Below are positions 3,937 through 63,852 of a stretch of DNA of 64,000 nucleotides, piece after piece; the stretch's first letter is position 1; each line of letters starts with the position of its first letter. Location: the NCBI GenBank assembly GCA_963082975.1, contig OY720345.1, positions 58,820,528-58,884,527 of the forward strand, given 5' to 3'. The DNA is from Labia minor. Lineage: Eukaryota > Arthropoda > Insecta > Dermaptera > Spongiphoridae. A model generated the notes under the pieces. That model was not told where the DNA came from. It worked only from the letters and a program-made list of their open reading frames with translations, and made no database searches. A program made the position numbers and the translations under genes.

Positions 3937-4424
3937 ATGAGGTGTGGCCAGGCACAGAACCGACCGACGATTTGAAATAAATAAATTTTCAAATAACATT
4001 ATATATATAAAGTATAATAAAAAATATTTTTAAAACTTGAATTAAAATGTCTAAATTATATTATTATGGTTTTTATTTTTAGTTTAATTACTTAAATATT
4101 AATTACCACTAAATTTTAAGAGAATTATTATTCCACAATGAATATAAAATTCATACTTTGTAAACTACCACTTCCTATTTCCGGATATACACCAAAAGTT
4201 GATCATACTGATGCATTAAGTAAATATACCAAATTTTATCAAAATTCATTGAGCCGTTCAAGTTGTACACGTCTATACAAACACACAACGGACAGACGGA
4301 CAGACATGCTAAAAATAATTTTTTCTGTTAACAAAATGCATGATTCGTGGAGATATGTAAAAATCTCTACGTGTGAAATTTGGTGTGAAAACAATACATT
4401 CCCTTCCTATCGTCCGTCTGTAAA
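3937..4424. repeat. Family B interspersed repeat, copy B1
   Basis: The left part matches the family end (GTGGCCAGGCACAGAACCGA, then CCGACGATTTGAAATAAATAA). The right part carries AAAAGTTGATCATACTGATG, the GACGGACAGAC run and ACGTGTGAAATTTGGTGTGA, and ends TCCGTCTGTAAAAA. The 104-codon ORF here is repeat sequence and not a gene. Confidence 0.75.
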
Positions 4425-4499
4425 AAAAAATACAAACAAACATCAAAAATAGAAAAAAAGAACAATAAAAAAAGCAAATTAACAATTTATTTACAATTT

Positions 4500-20367: not shown

Positions 20368-20635
20368 TTTAGATAAAAAATTGTCATTTTTTTACTGTCT
20401 TAGCAGGCAGTATTAAAAATTTTGACGTTTTCCATATATAATTTTCAATTAAGAAATTAATAATGAAGCTGTATGTTTCAAGAGATATCATCAATAAAAC
20501 TTAATTTTTCTTTATAAATACTATATCTAGTGTGAATTTGAAAAAAATCGTTAGAGCGGTTTTTGAGAACCAATATATATAGATAAATACATATATACAA
20601 TTTTAGCTAGCATAATAAGATAAGATTATGTTTTT

Positions 20636-21016
20636 ACCGACCGACAATATTAAGGGAGGTATTGTTTTCACACCAAATTTCACATGTGGAGATTTTTACA
20701 TATCTCCACGAATCATACATTTTGTTAACCGAAAAAAGTCTTTATCATGATGTCTGTCCGTCTGTCCGTCCGTCTGAATAGATGTGTACAGCTTGAACGA
20801 CTCATCGGATTTCGATAAAATTTGGTATATTTACCTATTACATCATTATGATGGATTGATCAACTTTTGGTCCATATCCGGAAACCAGAAGTGGTAGTAT
20901 TACCGATCGACGATAGAAAGGGAAGGGTTATTTTAACACTAAAGCTAATGGTAGCTGGAAATTAATTTATTTCAAACCGTCGGTCGCTTCTGTGCCTGGC
21001 CATACGTCAACTTATT
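20636..21016. repeat. Family B interspersed repeat, copy B2
   Basis: Begins TTTACCGACCGACAATATTA, then TCACATGTGGAGATTTTTAC, (GTCC)n, TCATCGGATTTCGATAAAAT and TTGATCAACTTTTGGTCCA. It ends in TGCCTGGCCATACGTCAACTT. Shorter than B3 and B4 because the middle is deleted. Confidence 0.8.
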
Positions 21017-21024
21017 TAAATAAA

Positions 21025-24869: not shown

Positions 24870-25309
24870 GCTGGAGTGTCTCCACTCGACTATCTCGCAA
24901 TTTGAATTGGATTAAATAACATAATATATTATATTTAAATTAAATTTAATTAATTATAAATTATAAATAATAAATATTAAACCAGCGCATGTTTGGCTTT
25001 TTGTTGATGGCACCACGTCACGTGATGGCGCGTGAGATTTGCAGTGTTAAAAAATTAATTCTGGTAATTTCAGCGAATCAATCAAGCTGAAATTCTATAT
25101 ATAGCAGTTTTATACAATTATTAATCATGTGAAATATCTTTATTTTTACGGTCACTTTAGAGGAAAAAAAATCAAAATGTTGTAAGTAATGACCCTCTTC
25201 CGGTTGAGCTACATTTCTCAAAAGTTGATAGAAAACTACGAATTTTGAATAATGCTCATGTACCAAATTTCATCATTCTAGCTTAAACCGTTTTTGCGTA
25301 ATCTGGGTT

Positions 25310-25342
<33 letters not shown>

Positions 25343-25463
25343 GACACAGACATTTTTCTCAACCTTAGTGAAAATGATTCAGGAACCTTCAAAACGTATA
25401 AAAACATCAAAATCTCAACATCGAAAATTTTCGTGATCGCAATACTATGTCTTACGAGATAGA
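24870..25463 (+). repeat. Family A interspersed repeat, copy A3
   Basis: Complete copy from GCTGGAGTGTCTCCACTCGA to TTACGAGATAG. It has AAACCAGCGCATGTTTGGC, the (CATA)n/(CA)n run at 25311-25350 and TCAAAACGTATAAAAACATC. Confidence 0.82.
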
Positions 25464-25464
25464 A

Positions 25465-26247
25465 AAAATGTATATATTTTTTAAATTAAATAATATAATA
25501 TTTAAAAAAAAATACTCATTTCTAGAATCAAGTAAAGTATTGCATTCAAAAGTCACATTCCAATTTCCAATATTTAAAAATTGAATTACTACCATTACTT
25601 AATACCATTCAATGATAATATTTTTTTTCTGATCAATAAATAATCCTACGCATAATAATCGGAACTTGTTTCACAGAACAACATATTATAATTTTAAATT
25701 TAAAGAGTAAATATTTATCGGATGTAGAGTTCTTAAATATGCTAATTTCAATTTGTCTGTCGAAGAGGGTTCAGAACATTGAATTTTTTTTTTCCAATGT
25801 TATTACACATTTATTACGAAGCCTCAGTTCAATGGACTTGGTTTCTCTTTTTCACTACCCTCTTTTCACATTCCATCGGCAATTGAAAAATCAACTATTT
25901 GAGATCCATCCAACAACAAATAAATAGGAACCAACCATTCTCTTTCCACACTCATTTATACCATTCATGTTTATAGGAAACGATTCGGTTGCACAAATGC
26001 CATTGGCATTTCTGTTTTATTTGTTAATAGAGATACACCCACATATGTTATCTCCTATACGAACTTCTCGCATAACTCATCAAACGCTTCACAATCAATT
26101 TACATGTAATTTTTTAAAATGCCCTTCTAAAGGCTATTCCCTCACTTGTTTATATTCGATGGATGGCCATCGATTATGTTGAAAAATACCAAAATTTTAA
26201 ATTAAAACACAATATATACAAATTATAAAATAAATTCAAAATCAATT
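25465..26247. other. Spacer between two inverted family A copies
   Basis: Moderately AT-rich. It holds open frames at 25739-25927 and 25967-26182 without known domains. They look like chance ORFs, but G+C is slightly higher than in neighbouring spacers. Confidence 0.3.
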
Positions 26248-26361
26248 TTTACTATCTCGCCAGAGATAGTATTGCGATCACGAAAATTTTCGATGTTGAG
26301 ATTTTGATGTTTTTATACGTTTTGAAGGTTCCTGAATCATTTTCACTAAGGTTGAGAAAAA

Positions 26362-26406
<45 letters not shown>

Positions 26407-26877
26407 AGGCAAGATTACGCAAAAACGGTTTGAGCTAGAATGATGAAATTTGGTACATGGACATTATTCAAAATTCATAGTTTTCTATCAACTTTTGAGA
26501 AATGTAGCTCAACCGGAAGAGGGTCATTACCTACAACGTTTTGATTTTTTTTCCTCTAAAGTGACCGTAAAAATAAAGATATATGTTTGATAATTTTTCA
26601 CATGATTAATAATTGTATAAAACTGCTATATATAGAATTTCAGCTTGTTTGATTCGCTGAAATTACCAGAATTAATTTTTTAATACTGCAAATCTCACGC
26701 GCCAACACGTGACGTGGTGCCATCAACAAAAAGCCAAATATGCGCTGGTTTAATATTTATTATTTATTATTTATAATTTATAATTAATTAAATTTAATTT
26801 AAATATAATATATTATGTTATTTAATCCAATTCAAATTGCGAGATAGTCGAGTGGAGACACTCCAGCTAATTTATCC
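26248..26877 (-). repeat. Family A interspersed repeat, copy A4
   Basis: Complete copy in reverse orientation to A3. ACTATCTCGCCAGAGATAGT opens it, a long (GT)n run covers 26362-26402, and it ends TGGAGACACTCCAGCTAA. Its outer flank AATTAGC also occurs outside A3, so the true element end may reach that far. Confidence 0.82.
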
Positions 26878-35394: not shown

Positions 35395-35677
35395 TTAAAC
35401 CCCCAGAGTCCCTCAATCTCTACGCCCATGTTTCAGTGGATATTTTGTCAGTTGAGTGGTGGGGAATCGGAGGTTTTCGGAAGGGATAGCTGGAAGGGAG
35501 TGGAGGGGGCACCGGCTGGTTATAAGTGAACTGCGCAAACGATCTAACGCTCAGTTTGCGCTCCACCGTTCTCCTAAAAACATCTTGTTTTATTTCCAAT
35601 TTTTCTTTTTTTTTAAATTTTCCTAGCACTCTATGAGAATAACTATGGCCCCTCCCACTCTTTATTTAATCTAGAGA
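35395..35677 (+). promoter_or_regulatory. Probable promoter/5' UTR region of the moody-like gene
   Basis: This patch is clearly richer in G+C than its surroundings and lies just upstream of the first coding exon. It contains arthropod initiator-like TCAGTT at two places (GTCAGTTGAGTG and GCTCAGTTTGCG). The sequence ATCTAG just before AGAATGG could be an acceptor, so an upstream non-coding exon is possible. Confidence 0.35.
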
Positions 35678-35899
35678 ATGGAGTTGGAGATGTGGATTTT
35701 ACCGAATAAAGACAATGACACCCTCGCCGTCAACGACTCGGAACTTCTCGACGACGATAATATCCTCGGAGAAGTGCCTCTCTTCGAAGGATACCCGTCA
35801 CCATTGTTACACTTGGCAGCCGCTTGTTGTGCTCTTTTCATCTTGATGGGGGTTCCTGGAAATCTTATCACCATCGTTGCACTTTTCACCTGTAAAAAG
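35678..35899 (+). CDS. moody: moody-like exon 1: N-terminus and TM1
   Basis: Encodes residues 1-74. An acidic extracellular N-terminus (DSELLDDDN) is followed by TM1 ending in TCKK. The donor AAAAAG|GTAGGC leaves phase 0. No signal peptide is seen, which is usual for this family. Confidence 0.85.
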
Positions 35900-38800
35900 G
35901 TAGGCAGGCTTTTTTTTCTCTTTTGTTTTTCATTTATATTTAATGCATATCAGGCATTTAATAAGAAAATCTTTATCTTTTTTTTTGTAGTTGATCTAAA
36001 ACTAGGGGAGGGGAAGGGGAAGGGGTTTGTTTAAATAACATTTATCTGTCAAACTTGAAGTCGAGGTGTCAAACCCCGACAACTTCCTTCAATTTAAAAT
36101 TTTAGTAAACAATATTGAATAAAATATAAAAATATATAATAAAAAAATATGGTTTAATGCCCGAAGTCATAAATAAATAAAAAAAAAAAATAAGAGAAAC
36201 TGACTAAATAAATAATTCTCATTTTCTTTTAGATGATTTATTGTGAATAATAAATAAATATTTAACAAACAATATTAATTAATATCTCTTATCTTATTAT
36301 TTAAATAACTTCATATAATACAACTTGATATTCATTTCTCTTTTATTTTACTCTTTTTTTTAATATAAAGTAATATTTATTTTTTTCAAAAAATTTAATT
36401 ATTAATTATTTGTTATTGATGTAATTTTGAGTTTTTTTTTAAACAAACGTATATTCGACGTATAATCAACAAAAAAAAAAATGAAAAATATACTTTCGAA
36501 AGATTTTTTAAACATACTTATAAATAATTTAATGTATATTTTTTAATATCCAAAAAATGTAGATTTTTTATTTATTTTGTTTTACTATATCTATATATAT
36601 AAAAGGCAATGTATGTCTGTGTGTCCTTCAAATACTCAAAAACTACCCGTCCGATTACGGTGAAACTTTCAGGGATTGTTGTGGGCATCCCAAAGAAGGT
36701 TTTAGTGTAGTTAAATCCAAAATTAATTTATCCAAAATTATATAAAATAAATCTAAATATATATAAAAGGCAATGTCTGTCTGTGTGCCCTTTAAATACT
36801 CAAAAACTATTAAATATATAATAACCATTTTTCTTTAAAATTAAAAAAAAATCACTTATGTTTACTTCACTTGATTTACCTATAAATAATCATTAATATA
36901 AATTAGAAACAAATTATCAAAAATAGTTAATAGTAAAAGTGACTATATTTGTTTTTATATAGTTAATTCTTTCTGATAAATTGATTAATTACAATTTCTT
37001 TATAAAGGCTGTTCAGAACGTTTATTTCACCATTAAAAACTAAATAAAAAACAAACTTCTAAACGTTCTTCAATTCTAATTTATTTATAATTTTAGATTG
37101 TATCAATCCAAATGTTGAAATATTAATCGTTTTTTTTTTTTTTATAATTTTACAATTTACAATTTTTTTTACAATTGCCTAATCTGATTTTAAAAAAATG
37201 TTAATTTACAAATTATTTTTTCAATTTTCTTAAAAAGAACTCAACAAAAAAACATATTTAAATAAATTGGTTTTTACATAATTTAATCAAGGTAATTAAA
37301 TATTTAATATTTTCTATAATTTATAGATTACTAGCTGCTCAGAGCGCCTTCGGCGCTCTTCACACCTAGACGGGGGCTCCGCCCCCTGTACCCCCGGGTG
37401 GTACATAGTATTTGGTTGAAAGTAGTAAAAGGTTTTCATCCATTTTGTTTCAATCCGTATATTACATAAAACATTCATTTCTTTTTGTGTTCTTATTCAA
37501 AATCTATTTTAATTTAATCAGTAAATTAATTATATATATTATTATTATTGTATATGTTATATCTATCTATCTATGTGGCTCAAAGATACTCGAAAGTTCT
37601 TGGCCGCAACAACCACATTTCTCCAATTGTCCCTATCCTAAGCCCTTGTCCCATCTCTCTTACGTCCCTTCCTACGCGTCATTGGTTTTCCAAGCGGACG
37701 TTTTCCAATCGGTCTCCCCACCAATATCTTTTTCCTCTCCCATTCTAGCCACGTGCCCTGCCTATCGCAGCTTTTTCCCTTTTATAACCCTAACTATTTC
37801 TGAAGATGCAGAGAGACCATGCAATTTCTTGTTATGCTGTCTCCCCCATTCCCCGGTGACCTCATCTTTCTTTGGCCAATAAATGCAGGGAAGAATCCTA
37901 TTCTCAAATACTCTGAATCTACTCTCATCTCCCAGGGTCATAGACCATGCCTCCCACCCATATAATGCAACAGGCAAAATAATTTTTTTATATATTTCCT
38001 TTGATAATAATTTTGAAGAGATAAGCCTCTTTATTGCAAGATAACAAGTCGTTTCCCGATTGCAACCCCGATTTAAATTCTTCTCAAATATTATTATCCT
38101 TCGTGATTACATTCAATTTTTCTACATATTCAAATTCTACATTTTGTATCTTAAGATTTTGTATGTTAATACTCTTCCTCTTTGTTACTAAATATTTTTT
38201 CTTATCACTATTAATTTCAAACCTCCATTAATTTTTCCTCGCTATCTGCAATTGCAATTTCCTAATCTCCTATTATATTTAAGTCGTCTGGGTAACCTAA
38301 CATTTTACAATTGATTTCCGCATCTTATTCTTTCTTTACTACCTTCAAGACAAATTTGAAGATCAAAATTTGAAAAAGTTTATGCTGATCTATATTGAAT
38401 CATGTGTATGTTTTACTAAAGTCTACAAATAATTAGTGAACAGAAATATTGAATTCGCAGTTTTTTTCCTAATATCTGTCATAATGAAAATATCTTAATT
38501 AATGTTGATCGATTTGGCCTGAACCCGCAATGATATCTCCTAATATTTCCTCCGCTTATGGTTCTTAAGTATTTTCTATGTTATAATAGTGAAATAGAGT
38601 AATATTTCTTGATCATTACATTTTGATATTTTATTTTCATTGCTAGATTATTATTGAATATTTTTAATTATAATAAAACTTGAGAAAATGCAAAAATAGA
38701 TACTTGAGACAATTTATAAAAATTAACGCGGTATAAAACTATAGATAAATTACCAATATATACATTCATTAATAGTATTAATTTAAATTAATTGATTTAT

Positions 38801-44800: not shown

Positions 44801-47800
44801 TTGAAACGCATTAAATAGTACTCAATTTGTTAATCATGTTACATCATAGTCCACTTCTTGGCATTAATGTAAATTTGTAAATGGTTGCAAAAAAAATTAA
44901 AAATTGTTTATACTAATCGGCGTCCTTCTACACAGTATATGATAAATTTGCAAATGTGTGTAACCTGTTTCACAATTTTTCAAGCCTTATAAATTTTTCA
45001 ATAGACTTTTGTTTTTAAAGATTGTTCTTCTTCACTTTCGCTATGAAATTAGGAAACTCTCCGTCACTTAACCTTCCCTGTCAGTTCCCATTGAAAGTTT
45101 AATTATGACTTCTGAAAAATTTAATCACAAGTTCAAAGAATATTAAACTGTTGAATTTTGAAAAAGTAGTTCTTTTATATATTAATCGGATAAAGGTTAA
45201 AAAAAATTTTTATGTATTCTTTTGCAAAATAGGAAAAGACTATATCGAGTAAAACTGCTCACGCTTATGATTTATTAATATTTTATTTTCATCTTTTATT
45301 TATGTCATTCTTTATAAATTATATTCCACTTTTTTACATTATATTATGATGAGAGATATAAGCTTCAAAAATTTCGAAATTTTGATTTTTTCTAATTATC
45401 ATAAATATATATTATTTTATTTGAGAACTAATGCCGTTTATGAAAACATAAAACATGGAATTATATATATATATATATATATAATATTATTTCATTAATC
45501 AAGTTTTATTCATTTATAAGAGAAAGAGGAATAAATATTTTTTTAATTTTTCTAATGAGTCCATTGTGGAGATTCGAAACAGGAATTAATAAGGAAAAGC
45601 TTAGTTAACCTGGCTTGTTTTAGGGATATTTTTCCAGACACTACCTAGGACACTAATAGGCGAGAAAAGTGAAAGGAGTGCATATAATGTTTATAATGAT
45701 TTTTAAATTTTTTTTATTAGAACTAAATAAGTTTATTTACAATTATACTATTTTACACTAGTTTCAATCACTGAAAGAATTCCCCTCCACCTCGCCTCTC
45801 CATTCCAGATCATTCTCGGGCGATTTCTATCCTCAAATGACTTCAGTGCCTCGAATGCTTAAGACGTTTCTTGAATTTTCATCTTATTTTTTTTAGTAAA
45901 CTCGATTATTGTTTATAGATTAATTCACGTTTGACATTTAATTTTAAAAATAAAAAAATTCCATTTGTATTTTATTTTATTTTTCAGATTATACCGAAAA
46001 CAATGGCTCGGTCTTATGGTAGCTGCAACATGGATTTTTGGCTTCGGAGCTCTCAGTGCTACATGGTTTGGAAAATGGGGCCGTTTTGGTCTTGATAGAC
46101 AAATTGGTTCTTGTTCCATAAAACCTGATGCAGACGGTCGTTCGCCTAAAGAATTCCTTTTCATCACAGCTTTTGTGATACCTTGTTTAGCTATTTCCAT
46201 ATGTTATGCTCGAATATTTTACATAGTACGTCGAACGGCAAGACGATCACGAAATCCACCAACAGGTCATATTACTGGAAGGGGAAGTGGAAGTAGCACC
46301 ACAGGCAATTCCAGTGCGACAGGAGGCCCTAGTCAAAGTGTTATAAGTGGATGTCAAAATAATACTTCAAGAATTTCAGCTGCTTCTGCTTATACCGACA
46401 CAAATAAAAGGTAAGATCGAATCATATTTTCCATATATTTGCAAGATATTTTAATCCCTGTTTTGATTTTTTAAAATAATTCGAATCATGATAATAAATA
46501 CGAACTTTTTTCAACCAGACATATAGCCTTATTAGATATATTTGCTGAACAAAACTAGAAAATCAATTTTTTCAAACTCGTACACAAGGATGAACTATCC
46601 CTTCCCCACTTCCGCAACCTGACATTTTTGCATAGCTTTTATTGTAACCCCGTTTGGATTTATTTCTGCTAAGTTATAAAATTCCATTATAAATATGGGA
46701 GTAGTAAGTCTTGAAAGGACCAGAAATAGTCCTATCCAATGCGATTGTAAGCAGAACGATTTTATTTTCTTTAGCTTAGTTCAGAACCTACATAATAATG
46801 ATTATTACAGTATCAATTATCCCGGTGCAGCTTTTTTTCCGAAAATGTAAAATAGCAACAAGTCAAACAAATTTGATATGAAAACAGTTTTGCCTTTAAA
46901 TAGCTAAATTCACATAATATTTCAGAAATATAAGCAAATAAAAACAAGTAGGAGCAATTTCATAATTAAAAGCAACAAATGATTGCACATAGATGAGGTA
47001 AACTAGGTTTAGTAGTCATCATGACCGCTACCGAGATTGTCAAACAGAACAAAAAATAAATCCTTGCAAACCCAATTTTTAAATGGAAACCATGTATCCC
47101 ACATGAATCAACTACCCCACCTTTCTCCTAAATAAGGCATTTAATTAAATGCTATTTACAGAAAGCCAATTATAAAAGATAATAAATATATAAAGATAGA
47201 GACAATAATTAATTATGAACCTGAACCATTAGATTTGTTTTTTTTTAAATTCTTGAACATCTTGCAAAACAATTCAATAAAAATGCATATTAATATAAAA
47301 AAATAAATTTTTATTTCAAAATTTACAGATCATCTGCAGAAGATTCGGCGCTTTCTTCTTGTAGTGGGGCTGGACTCACAACTACTGTGAGTACAGTTGA
47401 ACTCGCTATTACCTCTGGTCGTCGAAGTGGCGGTCCCCGAGAAGCCTCCTCTTCCTCTGGAGTTGATTGCTATGATGATTTTGATACCAGAAGTCTTACA
47501 TCTAGTCATCATCCTAGTCCTAGAGATCGAAGGGGTTCAGCCCTTGGTCAAGTATGTCGGTTATATTACATTTTTTAATGAATGGCATTCTATTTTAAGA
47601 TCACCATTGTGTAATGCTTGTTAGAAAGCGACCAAGGGGCTTATTTCTTTATTTTATTTCGGTAATAAATAAATAAAAATTCTATACTCATCTATGACCT
47701 TACTTTATGATAAATTTTTTTTCATATTAATAATATAATTGTATAACCAGGTAGGATTTGAGAATATTGTTTTGCAGGTCTGTCTTATTATTATCTTCGG

Positions 47801-48407
47801 ACAGATAATTTGTTGGGCCGATTATTATGTATATCTCTATTCTTTCTTGTCTTATAATTATTACTATTTCATAAACACAAAAGTTATTTTTTGGTATACA
47901 TCTCTTGATAAGAATTTTTTTAAAGCTGATCATCCGATGCAGAGAACCTGTTCTGCCTGCTCTTAAAATAAAATTTTACATTTTCATAAACGGAAATTTC
48001 AGGTTGCGGCAGCCGTTTTCCGAAGAAGACCTACAGGAGCCTCCTCCGCAACACCAACTGGACCACCTCAACCTGGTAAAATGTCCAATAAAGATAAAAA
48101 ACTACTCAAAATGATTTTAGTTATATTTTCTTCATTTGTACTATGCTACTTGCCAATTACTATTACAAAAACTTTCCATAGCTCATTGGAATTGCGAGCA
48201 CTAAATATTGCTGGTTATATTCTCATCTACCTCACCACCTGTATTAATCCTATTATTTATGTAGTCATGAGCAGTGAATATCGGCAAGCCTATAAAAATT
48301 TGTTAATGTGTCGAAGTGGAAGTGGAGGCGATATCACAGCCGGAGTTAAAGTGTGTAAAACAATGCCACCTACTGGACCATCTATAGGTAATATTCATAA
48401 GGTATGA
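35678..48407 (+). CDS. moody: Moody/Tre1-like G-protein-coupled receptor (five coding exons)
   Basis: Rhodopsin-family seven-helix receptor of the plasma membrane. In Drosophila, Moody acts in subperineurial glia through heterotrimeric G proteins to keep the blood-brain barrier tight. Exons 35678-35899, 44001-44239, 45988-46410, 47329-47551 and 48003-48407 all have GT-AG borders and join in phase to 503 residues. TM1 lies at about 45-69 with GNL. Residues 75-154 hold TM2 and TM3, with Cys117 and NRY at 141-143 in place of DRY. Cys196 is the likely disulfide partner of Cys117. TM4 and TM5 lie between 160 and 234. The third intracellular loop (about 235-402) is very long and Ser/Gly-rich. TM6 has CYLP instead of CWxP, and TM7 has NPIIY at 451-455. 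The start at 35678 is the first Met after an acceptor-like TAG; Met5 is an alternative. NRY and NPIIY support Moody/Tre1; choosing Moody over Tre1 is inference from memory of the family. Intron 1 is 8.1 kb and full of TE pieces. Confidence 0.88.
36591..36830 (+). repeat. Helitron-like or related repeat, two partial copies
   Basis: TATATATAAAAGGCAATGT, then TCTGTGTG and ACTCAAAAACTA, occurs at 36593 and again at 36753. The first copy continues with CCGTCCGATTACGGTGAAAC and TTTCAGGGATTGTTGTGGGC. The pattern is common in insect Helitron-like repeats; no CTRR end is seen next to it. Confidence 0.35.
37331..37480 (-). mobile_element. Helitron-like 3' end with hairpins and CTAG terminus
   Basis: Read on the minus strand: GGGGGCGGAGCCCCC hairpin, then AGAGCGCCGAAGGCGCTCT hairpin, seven bases, and CTAG followed by T. 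This is the Helitron 3' signature (hairpin then CTRR, insertion before T). A second copy lies at 18460-18609. Confidence 0.6.
37562..38560 (-). mobile_element. LINE fragment: RT palm to C-terminus, with (ATAG)n tail
   Basis: The minus strand runs from 38560 (INLRSDI-like region) past an RT active-site relic YPDDLNIIG (~38290) to the C-terminal LYGWEAWSMTLGDESRFRVF with FENRILPCIYWPK and IVRVIKGKK. It finishes with the GRPIGKRPLGKP...AKNFRV end and a (GATA)n tail at 37562-37575 on plus. Stops and frameshifts break it. This is the longest copy of the LINE whose 3' ends are scattered in the window. The plus ORFs here are antisense. Confidence 0.75.
38561..39415. other. AT-rich intronic sequence
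   Basis: Lies in intron 1 of the moody-like gene. 38760-39060 may hold more degraded LINE sequence (upstream of the RT), but I cannot show it. Confidence 0.3.
39420..39775 (+). repeat. Family C interspersed repeat, copy 1
   Basis: TTCTGCGGTTATTGATAATA, TTTATAGCCTATGTTACTCT, AAATCGGTTCAGCCAATTCT, a (GACA)n run at 39633-39660 and AAAGTCACTTTTGGATTCTA recur in reverse at 43085-43420. The layout resembles 3' parts of RTE-like retroelements or Helitrons; I cannot decide which. Confidence 0.65.
39776..41205. other. AT-rich intronic sequence
   Basis: 40580-40830 is less AT-rich, and its minus strand has cysteines in a broken frame that could be a LINE ORF1 zinc knuckle (CLRCGRLQK). The support is too weak to call. 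The ORFs at 40836-41286 are hydrophobic AT-driven frames, except for the LINE start at ~41215. Confidence 0.3.
41215..41500 (+). pseudogene. LINE reverse-transcriptase fragment
   Basis: DLRIIGNLYWNQVATLD is followed, past a stop, by DYIKIKRGVRQGCIFSPLFF and NLYSE (RT motif 4). The active-site motif WYADDT lies at 41433-41450. Domain order fits one RT of the Jockey/CR1-type group. Stops disrupt it. Same orientation as the host gene. Confidence 0.78.
41640..41880 (+). pseudogene. Mariner transposase N-terminal fragment
   Basis: One frame reads LLLHRSNCLFWFQRFKSGNF and then DVNDNKRPGGPKSLK, the linker between the two helix-turn-helix units of mariner transposases (WFxRFKSGDFDVxDxxRxGRP). Stop codons are present and no terminal repeats were found. 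Confidence 0.65.
43085..43420 (-). repeat. Family C interspersed repeat, copy 2
   Basis: Reverse complement of the copy at 39420: TAGAATCCAAAAGTGACTTT, (GTCT)n, ATTGGCTTAACCGATTATTA, ATAACCGCATCAAGTAATTT. The GACA run is shorter. Confidence 0.65.
44001..44239 (+). CDS. moody: moody-like exon 2: TM2-TM3 and NRY motif
   Basis: The acceptor ATATTTCAG precedes VRNATAVFIINLSVSDL (TM2). Cys117 starts TM3, and INRYVMIGHP follows at the cytoplasmic end. The donor CCCAA|GTGAGT leaves phase 2. A 65-codon ORF on the opposite strand here is only a shadow. Confidence 0.92.
44240..45987 (+). other. moody-like intron 2
   Basis: AT-rich, no TE recognised. (TA)n at 45464-45483. The acceptor is preceded by a T-rich tract. 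Confidence 0.6.
45988..46410 (+). CDS. moody: moody-like exon 3: TM4, ECL2, TM5, start of ICL3
   Basis: The acceptor TTTTTCAG completes Lys154 and continues with LYRKQWLGLM. The exon covers TM4, the second extracellular loop with Cys196, TM5 (FLFITAFVIPCLAIS) and the basic start of loop 3 (RRTARRSRNPP), which turns into a Gly/Ser/Thr-rich stretch. Donor AAAAG|GTAAGA. Confidence 0.9.
47329..47551 (+). CDS. moody: moody-like exon 4: Ser-rich part of ICL3
   Basis: Residues 295/296-369 lie wholly inside the third intracellular loop. The exon is rich in Ser, Arg and acidic residues (DSALSSCSGAG, SSSGVDCYDDFD) and offers many possible phosphorylation sites. It joins in phase on both sides (acceptor TTTACAG, donor GGTCAA|GTATGT). 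Two overlapping ORFs in other frames are shadows. Confidence 0.82.
48003..48407 (+). CDS. moody: moody-like exon 5: end of ICL3, TM6, TM7, C-tail
   Basis: The acceptor AAATTTCAG precedes VAAAVFRRRPTGASS. KMSNKDKKLLKM leads into TM6 (CYLP) and TM7 (TTCINPIIYVVM). The tail ends NIHKV-stop. Two donor-like sites sit inside the tail: ATAG|GTAATA (exon end 48387, phase 1) and CATAAG|GTATGA (exon end 48401, phase 0). The stop may therefore belong to an intron-retained or short isoform. Confidence 0.88.
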   Translation, partial: VAAAVFRRRPTGASSATPTGPPQPGKMSNKDKKLLKMILVIFSSFVLCYLPITITKTFHSSLELRALNIAGYILIYLTTCINPIIYVVMSSEYRQAYKNLLMCRSGSGGDITAGVKVCKTMPPTGPSIGNIHKV

Positions 48408-53659: not shown

Positions 53660-53846
53660 TAGGGTGACCATATTTCGAAAACACCAAACCGGGACAAACG
53701 GTATACCTTTTTTTTAGAACTAAATTGAAAAAATTTTGAAAAACAAAATTACGAAATGTCCTAAATATTGAAAAAGCGGGACAGTAGGCTGTCCCGAAGA
53801 CATTTTTGGGACAGAGCACCTAAAGACGGGACGTTTGGTCACCCTA
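53660..53846. mobile_element. MITE with TAGGGTGACC ends, TSD TCGATGAC/TTGATGAC
   Basis: Ends TAGGGTGACCATATTTCG and TTTGGTCACCCTA are inverted. Octamers differ at one base. The interior includes GGACAGTAGGCTGTCC, a perfect palindrome around AGGCT, and the core-like GAACTAAATTGAAAAAATTT. The same family occurs at 59017 in opposite orientation. Confidence 0.82.
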
Positions 53847-53915
53847 TTGATGACACTGGGAGACGAGAGTAGATTTAGAGTATTTGTGAAAAATGAAAAA
53901 ATGTTTTTAGTGATT

Positions 53916-54556
53916 TTTACCGACCGACGATAGTAAGGGAGGTATTGTTTTCACACCAAATTTCACATGTGGAGATTTTTACATATCTCCACGAATCATT
54001 CATTTTCTAAACAGAAAAAAGTATTTTTAGCATGATGGCTGTCCGTCTGTCCGTCCGTCTCTCCGTCCGTATAGATGTGTACAGCCTGAACGGTTCAACC
54101 GATTTTGATGAAATTTGGTATATTTACTTAATGCATCAGTGGGATGAATTGATCAACTTTTGGTGCAATTCCAGAAACCGGAAGTGGTAGTATTAGCGAT
54201 CGACGATAGGAAGGAAAGGGTTATTTTCACACCAAAGGAGATTTTTTTATATATCACCACGAATCATGCATTTTGTATTGGTTTTATCCTCGGAAAAAAA
54301 TCATATTTATTAGTTTTTTCTTGATTTAAAATTATATGACGTCATCCAGCCATGCATGACGTCACAGCCTGGTCTTGCATATATATTATAAATAAAATAA
54401 AATTAAAAATGTTTATATTTATTATTTATGTATCCATATCTGTTTTTTATTACATTAATAGATATATGAAAATTATTTGAAATTGTTTCTGTAGCTGGAA
54501 ATTAATTTATTCCAAACCGTCGGTCGGTTCGGACCTGGCCACAGGTCAACTTATTT
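53916..54556. repeat. Family B interspersed repeat, copy B3
   Basis: TTTACCGACCGACGATAGTA through TCACATGTGGAGATTTTTAC, (GTCC)n, GTTCAACCGATTTTGATGAA, two TGACGTCA octamers (54337-54355), then GGACCTGGCCACAGGTCAAC-TT. Nearly identical to B4 over long stretches, so it is young. Confidence 0.85.
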
Positions 54557-55500: not shown

Positions 55501-55819
55501 ATTCTAAAATATTATTAAAATAATTATTTTAAATTTTACCTCGAAATTAAATAAAAAATATTAATACTATATCAATTAAAAAGAATGACGAGGAAAATTT
55601 CAATATAAATGACGTCATTTAAATCTACTTTTTTAAAATAAGAAAATACTAATAAAGTTGATTTTTCTCGAGGCAGAAACCAATACCAACCAGATCGATT
55701 TATCTTTATAAATATTATCTATGGTGAGAATTTCAAGAAAATCCTTAGAGCGGTTTAATATTTCAAAAATTTACAAATCTATATAAATACAATACTATAT
55801 ATATATGCATATAAATATA

Positions 55820-57909: not shown

Positions 57910-60900
57910 CTGAAAATAGAAAAAAATAATATATAATTAAAATTATCTAATTATTGTATGTTTTTAAATAAGTATTCAAATATAATCATGTAAATTTATA
58001 AAATCCTTTCTAAAGGGTGATTTTTCTTTCAAGAGTAAAGTTTTTGAAAAAAGGTTCGTGGCACTGGTTGGTAATGGCGTACAAACGTTAAAGTGAAAAG
58101 TTTTCAGCATACTCTGACATTTCATCATGGAAAGACTTACAAACATCATCGGTCCATTTTTCTTCAAAGAAGACCTCCACGGTCAACAGTGAACGATTTC
58201 GAGCCATGATACGCAACTTTTTTTTTGCCCCAGCTGGCCGAGTTGAACTTGGTTGACATGTGGTTTCATCAAGACATGCTACACAGCTCGTGAAACAATG
58301 AACATGTTGAAGGATGAATTTGAAGAGCAGCTTTCGAAATGGTCCTGTGAATTGACCGCCAAGATCATGCAATATGACGCCTCTTGATTATTTCTTGTGG
58401 GGTTATGTAAAGTGGTTAGTGTATATATATATATATGTGGACAAGTCGAACACGATAGAAGCCTTACAGGATAACATAACACGCGTAAATCGTGGAATAC
58501 AGGCCGAAATGCTCAAAAAAGTGACACAAAATTGAACCTTCAGAATGAACCATTTGAAATGAAGCCACGAACAACATTTACATGAAGTTAACTTTAAAAT
58601 GTAAATGGCAAAGGCCAATTTATCAATTCCAATAAAAATTTTGAATATATGATGCAAATTGAGTGTTTTATTCGATTTTTTAAAAAACTACGCTTAAAAA
58701 ATCACCCATTATTCTTGTAGAGGTAAGTAAGAAGCCGTTTATTCATAAATCATATTATTAAGGAATATTCTGGCTATAGTGGGTACACTTAAAGTATTAT
58801 CATTTCTGGTTTCATTCTGATTAGTTTTCAGCATTGATATGGAATATGGAGAGTTAAGCCTCATTCTCACAAATCAACTTTTATTGATCAATTTTAGTTA
58901 TTCATTTAATATTGAATGAAACCCTAGTCAGAACTTTTATGTCAATAAAGCTGATCAACTTATTAGTATATCAAGGAAAGCTTGAATAAATCTAACTTTT
59001 TCCGTTCATGTATAAGTAGGGTGACCAAAAGTCCCGTTTTTCCGGGATTGTCCCGTTTTTAGGTGCTCTGTCCCGGCGTCCCGAAAAAAGTCTTCGGGAC
59101 AGCCTATTGTCCCGTTTTTTTTTAATATTTAGTATATATCGTACTTTATTCAAAATTTTTTCAATTTGCTTCCAAAAAAAAGGTAAACCGTTTGTCCCGG
59201 TTTGGTGTTTTCGAAATGGTCACCCTATGTATAAGTCACGTTCGAGTTGAACCTCGTCTGAACATGAATCCGTATAATGTTCAAAAAAGTGAAGCCGGTA
59301 CAGAGGATATATATGTGTCTAACCACTTCGAGCATCTCAAAGTAATTGAAAATAGAAAAATATAATATGTATTTAAAATTATCTAATTATTGTATATTTT
59401 TAATTTCATTTTAAATAAATATTCAAATATAATTATGTAAATTTATAAAGTGCTTTCTATTTGTAAAATTTCTAGTAGTGTTACGGAACGCAGAAGTTAT
59501 TAGGTATTGTGGGCACACTTGAAGTATTGTCATTTCTTATTTCATTCACTTTTTTCTAATATGTCCTCCAAATTCTAGATCTCAAGGTAGATTCATGGAC
59601 AGGTCTATATGTGATTAGGAACAAATATTGATTAAAATCACGTTAATGTTTTGATACTTCATTCACACTTAAAGCACTTTTATTTAACATTTTATTTCGT
59701 CTTTTACTCATTAGAAATGTTTAGGTACTTTTTCTAATGATGCTTGAACACGGAAATATCCATCGCATGTTCTATTTTGTAACACTTTATTTCATTTGTG
59801 GTTTATTTGCTTGTATCGTCCTAATTTTCTAGCTTTCTTATTAATCACTAGTTTTTCAAAATCAAATGAATTACATTGTTCTAATAAATATTAATTTCTG
59901 ATATATAAGAACTACTTCCCAATTGATTTTTTTTTTTGTTTAAGTTTTCATGTATGCATAACAATCAATGCAAGTTACATTTCTTGAGACAATAACTCAT
60001 TAATTCTCCAACACCACATCATCATCAACCACTGTAAGGAATATATTTTCTCTTACTAAATTCATATAGCAAATTAAAATAATCCTAACATGTTCATTTC
60101 AAAATTATTCATAAACTTACTTTTTGGACAGGAAAAACAAGCTTAAGATCTTGTAGGAAAGTACTCCAAATTCCATCATTTTTTTCCATTTCTGCTTTAA
60201 TATCTTTTAACGTTTCTTCAATTATAAATGAGCATCGGTTAAAAAGTCGAGTAGAGCATTTCCATACTTTATATTTGAACTAAAAATGCACAAAACAAAT
60301 AAATATTTATCTAGATATACTACATGGGCTGAGAAGTCCCGGGATTTTTCAATAGGTGACGCCACTAGAAAATGAATGTCTTGATTAAACATTGTTCTCG
60401 AAGGAGCAGATGTGGGATAACATTCCTGCAACCACTGCAATGATTGTTCATAAGTTTTTCCCATTAAAAAACAATATTTAATCAAGACGCGATATTCAGA
60501 TTTTTTCATTTTTCTTATGAAGGCGAAAGTAGCGTCACTCAAACATCTGTAGCTTGTAAACGAATGGACGAAATGTCATGATTAGGGACACGATATCGAA
60601 AGGCTAAGTATCGATTCTTCGATAGTTTCGGACTCCAAAGTATCGATACTTTAGTATCGGTATATTTTTCCCGCCACTTTATGACTTGTCCCTAGGTGGG
60701 GGGCTTGGTGAGTTTTTTAAATGTATTTTTATTTAGAAGGAATAATTGGAATGAAAAAAAAAAATTTTGAAAATCCCAGTTAAATGAAAAATTATTTATT
60801 TAGAGGTAAAACTGACATTTCATAAAAAAAATTTTATTTTTTTCATATTTTTGCTGAAACGTTGGTTTTATCTCCAAAAAAATTATTTTTCATTTAACTG

Positions 60901-63852
60901 GGATTTTCACAATTTTTAAATTGCAGCTAGAAAATTTACACATATAGATAAAAAGAGTAATGTTTTATATGTAATATATTTATTTAAAGAAAGATAAAAA
61001 AATTAAAACAAAAATTGCATCGAGCAGATTTGTAGTCAACCCTGGTAAAATGCTTTCACACTTCAATCTTCGGCGGAGACACAGGGCCGGTTTTAGATAT
61101 ATTTCTAGTGTAAGCGAACAACATTCCGGCGCCCCCCCCCCCCTAAAAAACCTAATAGGTGGTAAGGATTATCCCTCGATACATTAAAAAATCCGAGTAA
61201 ATATAAATGCTTCAAAATGACGGAAACTTGGGAAATATGAATAAACATAAAGGTTTAATTATTAGCTTATATTAAACATGCTCCCCTTATTTATTGAATT
61301 TAGCACTTAAAATTAAAAAAAAATATTACATATATAAAATTAATTAAGTGTGAACAAATAAATAAATACAACAGTCTGTTTTAAAGAAACTATACAATTT
61401 ATTTACTTGTTGCTTTTATATAAAACTAAGTTCAGTAAGAAGTTGTATCTCATCCGTAATTTTTTGCGGCCACTCTCCACAGTCCATCGGTAGTAGCATT
61501 TACAGAAGCTGTTGTAACAGTATCGTCCTTGTCCAGCATCGTTGATGAAGTTGAAACCGTAATAAATTTGTGTAGTTTGATTGTATTTTATCTTCTTTTG
61601 CGTGCTGCAGTTTTTTTGCCGTTGAAAGACCCAGAGGGCTTTTTACTACTACTGCCAGCACAGTACTAGACATAACGTTACGCTTAATAAACAACGAAGC
61701 ACTAGAATGCGAATTTAAGCGGCATTTCGTTTTCTATGATTAGGATCGAACGATACAATGTCACTATAACGCATGACAAGAGGCAGTAGATGACCGAGTC
61801 ACTGAGTGACGCGAGGGTCGCGAGGCTCGACGGAGGAGTGGGGCGTCTGCTGGACGAGTCCAAGTAGAAGTTAGAAGGGGCCTGACGGAGTCCAAGTAGA
61901 TAAGTTGACCTGTGGCCAGGTCCAAACCGACCGACGGTTTGAAATAAATTAATTTCCAGCTACAGAAACAATTTCAAATAATTTTAATATATCTATTAAT
62001 GTAATAAAAAACAGATATGGATTTCCAGCTACAGAAACAATTTCAAATAATTTTAATATATCTATTAATGTAATAAAAAACAGATATGGATACATAAATA
62101 ATAAATATAAACATTTTTAATTTTATTTTATTTATAATATATATGCAAGACCAGGCTGTGACGTCATGAATGGCTGGATGACGTCATATAATTTTAAATC
62201 GAGAAAAACTAATAAATATGATTTTTCTCGAGAATAAAACCAATACAAAGTGCATGATTCGTGGTGATATATAAAAAAATCTCCTTTGGTGTGAAAATAA
62301 CCCTTCCCTTCCTATCGTCGATCGCTAATACTACCACTTCCGGTTTCCGGAATTGCACCAAAAGTTGATCAATTCATCCCACTGATGCATTAAGTAAATA
62401 TACCAAATTTCATCAAAATCGGTTGAGCCATTCAGGCTGTACACATCTATACGGACGGACAGACGGACGGACAGACATCATGCTAAAAATACTTTTTTAC
62501 CGACCGACGATAGTAAGGGAGGTATTGTTCTGTTAAGAAAATGCATGATTCGTGGAGATATGTAAAAATCTCCACATGTGAAATTTGGTGTGAAAACAAT
62601 ACCTCCCTTACTATCGTCGGTCGATAAAAAATGTCAGGCACCCCTCCGTTATTACCGACCGACGATAGTAAGGGAGGTATTGTTTTCACACCAAATTTCA
62701 CATGTGGAGATTTTTACATATCTCCACGAATCATGCATTTTCTAAACAGAAAAAAGTATTTTTAGCATGATGTCTGTCCGTCCGTCTGTCCGTCGAGCCT
62801 CGCGTCTTAAAATTATTTGAAATTGTTTCTGTAGCTGGAAATTAATTTACTTCAAACCGTTCGGACCTGGCCACAGGTCAACTTATTATTATTAGTGATT
62901 AAATGAAGTATGAGTATGCGAAAGGGTCCTGCCTGCGATATACGACTTGCACTAACTTATTACACCTAGAATTTGGCAATGTAAATCAACTTCAACCTCT
63001 AGCCTTCTTCTGAACATTGGAGAGCACTTAGGCGCCTCGGCGCCCCCTTTAGCTTAGCGCCCTACTTTGCTTACCCCTTAAACCGGCCCTGCGGAGACGT
63101 TTTATATATTTATAATTATAATATATATATTTTATATATTTAAATTTAAATATTAAGATTGAACGGGCGTGTTTAGAACGGAAGGTCTCAACTCTCAACG
63201 AAATGTCCACATGACCAAATGACCAAATAGCCGAAATAGCGTCGGCTGGTCGGCTGCTTGGCTCAAAGGTCAGGAGAAGAGAGAGGACATTCTGCTGTCT
63301 TCTTGTCGGTTCGGGTGGTGGCTGCTAGTATCGATACATTTTTAGTGTCTCTAGTCATGATACTTCATACATAAACTAGCCTCTCGAAATGACTTATGTT
63401 CATTTTCTCATTGAAAAACCCCGAGACTTTTCAGCCCATGTAGTATATATATGAAAATTATATAATATAAATATCTTTATTTTTATAGCTACATCAAAAT
63501 TTGGAACTTCATGTAGAAAATGCAATTCTCCATTACTTAAAACATCCACATTTCCTTGCCATGTATAATTGATTAGTGGTACATTGTTAGGATAATCCTC
63601 ACAATTCTCTGCTTCCAAATGCTCAACAATCAAATCTTTATTCTGAAAAAAATTAATACGTTAGTTGTTTCTTGATTAACTTTAAATTAAATAATTCTTA
63701 TTTTTCTAAAAATCATTTAAAATATATGTGATATTTTAAAATGAATATTTTCAGGTTCTTAAAAATTATTTATTTACCTTTGGAAGTGAAAGTGACAAAG
63801 TAATTGCAGTATAAACGATGCATGTTAATAAAAAATGATATAAAATTTTCAT
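57763..63852 (-). CDS. Secreted DUF1091/ML-like protein, 176 residues, four exons
   Basis: Reading from 63852 leftward, exons 63852-63778, 63642-63493, 60279-60121 and 57909-57763 contain 25, 50, 53 and 48 codons plus stop. Every junction is phase 0 and GT-AG. The product starts MKILYHFLLTCIVYTAI, a signal peptide of about 21 residues. It has an NYT glycosylation site at 50 and cysteines at 39, 83, 91, 168 and 171. The end pattern (FPVQKG at 124-129, RGIWKILI, then CFQC) resembles DUF1091/MD-2-related lipid-recognition proteins, which are secreted and thought to bind lipids. Family assignment is inference; the exon structure is seen directly. Intron 2 (3.2 kb) contains a four-deep TE nest; intron 3 holds a mariner and a MITE. 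Nothing shows how it is regulated. Confidence 0.72.
58013..58709 (+). mobile_element. Mariner-type element with GGGTGATTTTT ends, in intron 3
   Basis: Ends AAGGGTGATTTTTCTTT and AAAAAATCACCCAT are inverted with TA on both sides (58011-58012, 58710-58711). The plus strand encodes transposase pieces: MWFHQDMLHSS (second catalytic Asp in HQD), LDYFLWGYVKWLVY (after the third Asp position) and NTIEALQDNITRVNRGIQAE with MLKKV. Frames are broken. The minus ORFs across it are shadows. Confidence 0.78.
59017..59227. mobile_element. MITE with TAGGGTGACC ends and perfect TSD TGTATAAG
   Basis: Ends TAGGGTGACCAAAAGTCCCG and GAAATGGTCACCCTA are inverted. TGTATAAG lies on both sides (59009-59016, 59228-59235). 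Same family as 53660, in opposite orientation. Internal CGGGACAGCCTATTGTCCCG forms a stem. Lies in intron 3 of the secreted-protein gene. Confidence 0.88.
59236..60120 (-). other. Intron 3 sequence without recognised elements
   Basis: AT-rich. 59365-59460 resembles 57935-58010 (TTAAAATTATCTAATTATTG), a small local duplication within the same intron. Confidence 0.4.
60121..60279 (-). CDS. Secreted protein exon 3
   Basis: The acceptor CATTTTTAG opens FKYKVWKCSTRLFNRCSF, which carries two cysteines. It continues through an amphipathic Glu/Lys-rich stretch to LKLVFPVQK, with a strong donor AAAAA|GTAAGT. It lies just 40 bases from the end of the inserted mariner, so the insertion narrowly missed the acceptor. 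Confidence 0.7.
60766..60917. repeat. Foldback inside the second-level hAT
   Basis: GAAAATCCCAGTTAAATGAA at the left and TTCATTTAACTGGGATTTTC at the right are exact inverses. Pairing continues inward less perfectly (AGGTAAAACTGAC against GTTGGTTTTATCTCC). Confidence 0.75.
61082..63091 (-). mobile_element. Third nest level: hAT element, TSD CGGAGACA/CGGAGACG
   Basis: Ends CAGGGCCGGTTT and AAACCGGCCCTG are perfect inverses. The flanking octamers differ at the last base (61074-61081, 63092-63099). On the minus strand near 61640-61500, SSSKKPSGSFNGKK resembles the N-terminus of ZMYM1-like hAT transposases, followed by a stop. Without the inner repeat it is ~1.0 kb. The 64-codon minus ORF is the same region in another frame. 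Confidence 0.82.
61902..62884. repeat. Fourth nest level: composite family B repeat, copy B4
   Basis: Ends AAGTTGACCTGTGGCCAGGT and ACCTGGCCACAGGTCAACTT are inverses and the similarity runs inward for ~80 bases. The interior contains two opposite-facing copies of the CCGACGATAGTAAGGGAGG end, so it looks like two family B units joined tail to tail. A ~68-bp segment is tandemly duplicated (~61951-62090). Two TGACGTCA octamers lie at 62160-62187. Confidence 0.83.
63493..63642 (-). CDS. Secreted protein exon 2
   Basis: The acceptor TTTTTTCAG opens NKDLIVEHLEAENCED and the exon ends at ELHFLHEVPNFD with donor GAT|GTAGCT. The open frame runs on past the donor into the terminal repeat of the inserted mariner, and that extension is not part of the protein. 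Confidence 0.65.
63778..63852 (-). CDS. Secreted protein exon 1: signal peptide
   Basis: ATG at 63852 opens MKILYHFLLT CIVYTAITLS followed by LSLPK. The hydrophobic core spans residues 4-19. Donor CCAAAG|GTAAAT. The exon is too short to stand out as an ORF. Confidence 0.68.

Follow-up and report, generated by a model that had tools for sequence, protein, structure and literature searches.

Nested transposable element relics in a predicted short intron of the insect Labia minor

Introduction

Nesting of transposable elements in insects has been described at several scales. Within a 600-kb region of Calliphora vicina, 11 of the 322 repeats (3.4%) are given as nested, and two of these lie within fragmented copies of DD37E_Cv1, a TA-inserting element (PMC3630058). 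For Rhodnius, the account of its Tc1-mariner elements includes some that are nested in other miniature elements; it also gives Rpmar5, an element of the irritans subfamily from Rhodnius prolixus, as 1285 bp long with the TIR ACACATGGGCTGAAAAGTCCCGGGCCTAACACA (PMC4678618). Nested transposons are the material of established methods, among them interruption analysis (PMC2517846) and the tool TinT (PMC3014933), as these are presented in their sources.

Here we describe a nest in a stretch of 64,000 nucleotides of Labia minor (“the window”), which as a whole is AT-rich. The locus shares with the Calliphora vicina region the nesting of insect elements, some of them within a TA-inserting one, whereas the nest here is four levels deep; this comparison covers the counts of nested elements in that source (PMC3630058), not the depth of nesting there. 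We met no published account of the locus; a literature search is unfit to find one intron, and we therefore do not claim that none exists. Our reading, to which we give a probability of roughly 0.87, is that a short intron of a probable insect gene has been filled by dead transposable elements in a nest of ordinary kind.

Results

The nest occupies the second intron of a gene model derived from reading frames and splice dinucleotides (Table 1). A sequence-only reading had claimed that the frame of the host gene is intact despite the nest, and this holds: exons 2 and 3 are both open, in phase with each other, and bounded by AG and GT. The predicted spliced protein has no Pfam family above the cut-off and no convincing counterpart in the PDB, where the one match has an E-value of 0.25. 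Subtraction of the nest and of one TA leaves 87 bases of predicted intron 2, a length to be expected of a short intron, which fits the view that the nest is the whole of the intruding mass. A small intron grew from about 90 to 3,200 bases through dead transposon remnants nested in each other. Elsewhere in the window, a rhodopsin-type receptor has an exon at 45935-46414 (Pfam 7tm_1, E 9e-8); the open frames 35675-36034, which is without a Pfam match, and 47967-48407 appear to belong to the same receptor gene.

Table 1. Features of the nest, its predicted host gene and the related copies in the window.
Feature	Position	Strand	Details
Exon 2, predicted gene	63493..63642	-	50 codons, open; AG before, GT after; from translation and splice dinucleotides
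Exon 3, same predicted gene	60121..60279	-	53 codons, open; AG before, GTAAGT after; in phase with exon 2
Predicted intron 2	60280..63492	-	3213 bases
Mariner relic, level 1	60320..63443	-	345 bases of own sequence without insert; 155 bases precede the ATG-like start
Outer hAT-like relic, level 2	60583..63353	.	753 bases of own sequence
Near-palindrome in outer hAT-like relic	60760..60917	.	AT-rich; arms of 73 nt, 85%
Inner hAT-like relic, level 3	61082..63091	-	1,023 bases of own sequence
Family B copy B1, level 4	61900..62630	+	97.5% identical to the copy at 53.9-54.6 kb (618/634, gaps excluded)
Family B copy B2	62649..62886	-	Tail-to-tail with B1; middle deleted; filler 62795-62806
Inverted match across B2 deletion junction	62789..62804	+	16 nt exact, to hAT 61819-61834
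B1/B2 hairpin	62525..62754	.	Two 106-nt arms, 96%, 18 nt between; formed between B1 and B2 at their 3' ends
Family B solo copy	3943-4427		A run at 3' end; direct repeats 13/14 nt, ACAAACA(A/T)CAAAAA
Family B solo copy	20631-21018		A run at 3' end; no direct repeat at ends (best 10/12, displaced)
Family B solo copy	53914-54554		A run at 3' end; direct repeats 13/14 nt, AAAAATC(C/A)CTAAAA

The outermost level is a mariner relic with ends of the irritans type. It starts with CTACATGGGCTGAGAAGTCCCGGG at 60320, and the reverse complement read from 63443 is CTACATGGGCTGAAAAGTCTCGGG; both ends conform to the consensus CTACATGGGCTGA(G/A)AAGTC(C/T)CGGG, and CATGGGCTGA occurs twice in the 64 kb, both times at these ends. 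The TA target duplication is present on both sides (60318-60319 and 63444-63445), with the boundary uncertain by 3 bp, since the inverted symmetry also spans an inner TA (60321-60322 / 63441-63442). Each end is identical at 21 of 24 positions to ACACATGGGCTGAAAAGTCCCGGG, the first 24 TIR bases published for Rpmar5; the bases that follow are ATTTTTCAA and GTTTTTCAA here, as against CCTAACACA there, and the 1285 bp given for Rpmar5 compare with a relic which we read as internally deleted (PMC4678618). On the minus strand a frame starts with MKKSEYRVLIK at 60509 (MKKSEYRVLIKYCFLMGKTYEQSLQWLQECYPTSAPS) and runs into terminal sequence (...SRDFSAHV). This start presumably resembles an N-terminal mariner transposase, and we read the frame as such a start joined to the far end of the element through the internal deletion. 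In searches with the frame, Pfam gave no family for a 63-residue piece at a limit of E 10, nor for 116 residues at a limit of E 1, and the PDB gave no relevant match; the papers searched give no match to CCGACCGACGATAG, and the end pattern has 0 matches in prokaryote and viral contigs, a weak test for an animal element.

Two relics with different ends, both of which we take to be hAT-like, form the second and third levels. The outer one reads GTCATGAT | TAGGGACAC ... GTGTCTCTA | GTCATGAT, with a target duplication matching at 8/8 and a short TIR, TAGGGACAC/TAGAGACAC, matching at 8/9; AGTATCGATAC lies subterminally at both of its ends and is otherwise absent from the window. Six-frame reading of this relic gave no recognisable transposase frame, and a non-autonomous relic need not encode one. 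It contains an AT-rich near-palindrome (60750-60925 folds to -62.5 kcal/mol, z -12), which may be a further insertion or a native part of the element; no flanking duplication was seen by eye. The inner relic reads CGGAGACA | CAGGGCCGGTTTTAG ... CTTAAACCGGCCCTG | CGGAGACG, its TIR, CAGGGCCGGTTTTAG/CAGGGCCGGTTTAAG, matching at 14/15 and its target duplication at 7/8, the latter in a sequence that, as we understand it, does not fit hAT target preference. Both occurrences of CAGGGCCGG in the 64 kb are at the ends of this relic. Its minus strand has a short broken frame with a basic stretch, closing on KKPSGSFNGKKTAARKRR and a stop; we assume a likeness to a hAT N-terminus, the basic stretch being hAT-like, and an approximate version of the frame found no match in Pfam. 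There was no match to CAGGGCCGGTTTTA in the papers searched, and among the matches listed for CAGGGCCGG together with hAT the titles look unrelated. Set beside the features expected of non-autonomous hAT elements, the two relics agree in having 8-bp duplications, TIRs starting TAGGG and CAGGG, and no long reading frame, and differ in that no transposase domain was found in either.

How far such ends could arise by chance was gauged on Markov sequences of the whole window. Pairs combining an 8/8 duplication with a TIR of at least 8/9 number 15 in the window and 3-15 per control (40 controls); when the TIR is 10 nt long with no more than one mismatch and the duplication reaches 7/8 or better, there are 7 in the window and 1-11 per control (20 controls). 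The latter 7 include the mariner and the inner hAT-like relic, while the outer one is missed because the 6-base seed of the scan must be exact. A bare count of TIRs with duplications was accordingly rejected as proof, the controls yielding as many: a short TIR with an 8-bp duplication is, taken alone, not rare in an AT-rich window. Two more specific features, both picked after the elements had been seen, separate the outer hAT-like relic further: an 8/8 duplication and a TIR with at least 5 G/C are found twice in the window (this relic and a small element at 59017-59227) and twice in the 40 controls pooled, and an 8/8 duplication with a common subterminal 11-mer once in the window (this relic) and twice in the 40 controls pooled. 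What supports the nest is the agreement of several features at each level, together with the published mariner ends and the exact nesting. Apart from the nest, 25026-26704 has perfect 10-nt inverted ends (TGGCGCGTGA) and flanking sequence matching at 7/8, and is either another element or a product of chance.

The innermost level is made of a repeat, here called family B, of which further copies are seen elsewhere in the window. All three long solo copies, when aligned, are single-arm and one-directional, starting near TGGCCAGG and ending in GGTCGGTAAAAA or a variant of it. Retroelements of the LINE/SINE kind are one-directional, with an A-rich 3' end and direct repeats of about 7-20 nt, and family B is probably LINE/SINE-like: its copies run in one direction, their 3' end is A-rich, and two of the three solo copies have direct repeats of 13/14 nt. 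These repeats are themselves A-rich; among 300 random flank pairs one has a repeat as good near both ends, and shuffles of a copy's own flanks give one in 3/200 (the 3.9 kb copy) and 0/200 (the 54 kb copy). The likeness is one of copy structure, and the version in the nest differs in being a rearranged inverted pair. That family B might be a normal internal part of the inner hAT-like relic was rejected, given the three long copies elsewhere in the window, none of them inside a copy of that relic.

Several smaller observations concern the surroundings of these copies. A weak match to family B (75% over 81 bases) lies at 55609-55689. Two short elements, 53660-53846 and 59017-59227, share the TIR start TAGGGTGACC, are each flanked by an 8-bp duplication (TCGATGAC/TTGATGAC for the former, TGTATAAG/TGTATAAG for the latter) and form a hAT-like miniature family in the window; the first of them is about 70 bases from a solo family B copy.

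Within the nest, family B is present as two copies, B1 and B2, whose history appears to include local copying. B1 carries an exact 69-bp tandem duplication (61952-62089) that does not appear in any of the three other long copies, and the start of B2 recurs in it as an exact direct copy of 33 nt (62497-62529 = 62652-62684). The deletion junction of B2 carries GAGCCTCGCGTC, in which GAGCCTCGCG extends a 6-nt microhomology into the 16-nt inverted match to the surrounding hAT-like relic; the first 6 nt of this match are the B-derived microhomology and the last 10 nt are filler. The filler between the two copies (62631-62648) resembles the inverted hAT flank at 61876-61889 (7 exact nt, GTCAGGC), too weakly to count. 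A gap in the GGACAGAC stretch was considered as a trait of B1 and B2 only and discarded as uninformative, since it is also present in the 4 kb and 20 kb copies. Just before B1, GAGTCCAAGTAGA is seen by eye twice (~61855-61867 and 61888-61900), the second touching its 5' end.

We think it probable that the pair goes back to a single retroelement insertion or to two, with template switching at the site afterwards. Whether B1 and B2 are two independent insertions in opposite orientation, and not a local inverted duplication, has somewhat less than an even chance in our estimate: base differences separate the copies at several positions, among them the 5' end and the 3' tail, and family B is common, with four loci in 64 kb, whereas no target duplication was found for B2, and template switching is suggested by the fillers, which were copied from the hAT-like relic nearby and from B2. 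B1, B2 and the 54 kb copy resemble one another too closely in their 3' halves to decide between the two.

The four pairs of ends are where they had been placed (60320/63443 for the mariner, 60583/63353 and 61082/63091 for the hAT-like relics, 61902/62884 for family B), and the order mariner, hAT, hAT, family B stands, every element lying fully within the preceding one and inside the predicted intron. Ends, duplications and containment can be read off directly. An inner element that interrupts an outer one is the later insertion; the nest therefore orders events in the lineage of this DNA, not necessarily at this locus. The levels had also been described as dated by their target duplications, and here the claim must be narrowed, as the duplications show insertion and relative order and give no ages. 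The better-kept duplication (8/8) belongs to the older hAT-like relic and the poorer (7/8) to the younger; this difference of one base is no evidence of age in either direction.

Nesting and duplications, taken alone, are also compatible with the inner elements having already been inside an outer one when the latter jumped into the intron, in fewer than four steps, and the TIRs of the outer elements remain well matched. We consider such a transfer unlikely: on general grounds a mariner relic of 345 bases, loaded with 2.8 kb of foreign sequence, would be a poor substrate, and the composite has no second copy in the 64-kb window, a small search space. No second copy of the mariner or of either hAT-like relic is seen in these 64 kb either. 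We infer, as the more probable course, successive insertion at this locus in the order given.

The innermost level had been counted as the fourth transposable element, and its two ends imply an element bounded by TIRs; the three outer levels of that count stand, but a single inverted-repeat (foldback) transposon inserted as a unit is very unlikely here, since the inverted end blocks (61900-61987 / 62807-62886; 54 nt at 98% and 28 nt at 96%) are set against three of three other long copies in the window that are single-arm with a 3' A run, two of them with 13/14-nt direct repeats, against the lack of a direct repeat flanking the pair (the best is 8/10, 29 bases from the end), and against filler copied in part from the inner hAT-like relic.

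The tail-to-tail arrangement of the rearranged pair gives the intron a long hairpin. The minus strand from 62520 to 62760 folds to -176.5 kcal/mol, compared with a mean of -49.6 for shuffled sequence (z -26), and this hairpin is the one feature of the nest with a possible effect, as far as predicted folding goes. It would be a long shot to suppose that the pair has made the intron a source of hairpin RNA whenever the host gene is transcribed, its near-perfect stem of about 106 bp being diced into small RNAs that match the dispersed copies of family B (97.5% identical at 54 kb); were this true, the nest would serve as a minor locus of its own making that silences family B, the repeat at its core.

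Discussion

The nest can be accounted for by a series of ordinary steps. First, an AT-rich TA site in an intron of about 87 bases would have received a mariner with irritans-like ends. The mariner would next have taken up a hAT element, which in turn would have become the target of a second hAT whose ends are different. The second hAT would later have received family B, as a LINE/SINE-like retroelement; a duplication of family B, or its renewed insertion in the other orientation, accompanied by short fillers from template switching, would have given the tail-to-tail pair. On this account the later insertions fell in DNA that was already dispensable and would have been tolerated, the exons being kept intact and, if the gene model is right, the enlarged intron still being spliced out. 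A current function of the nest is neither needed nor indicated, and most likely it does nothing.

Nested transposons are commonplace, and the nest described here is a tidy but ordinary genome scar; a single four-level nest in one intron alters no general view. It provides a clean worked example of relative ordering through nesting, and the analysis corrects the nature of the innermost element. Its practical use is as a marker, every level predicting an empty site in relatives.
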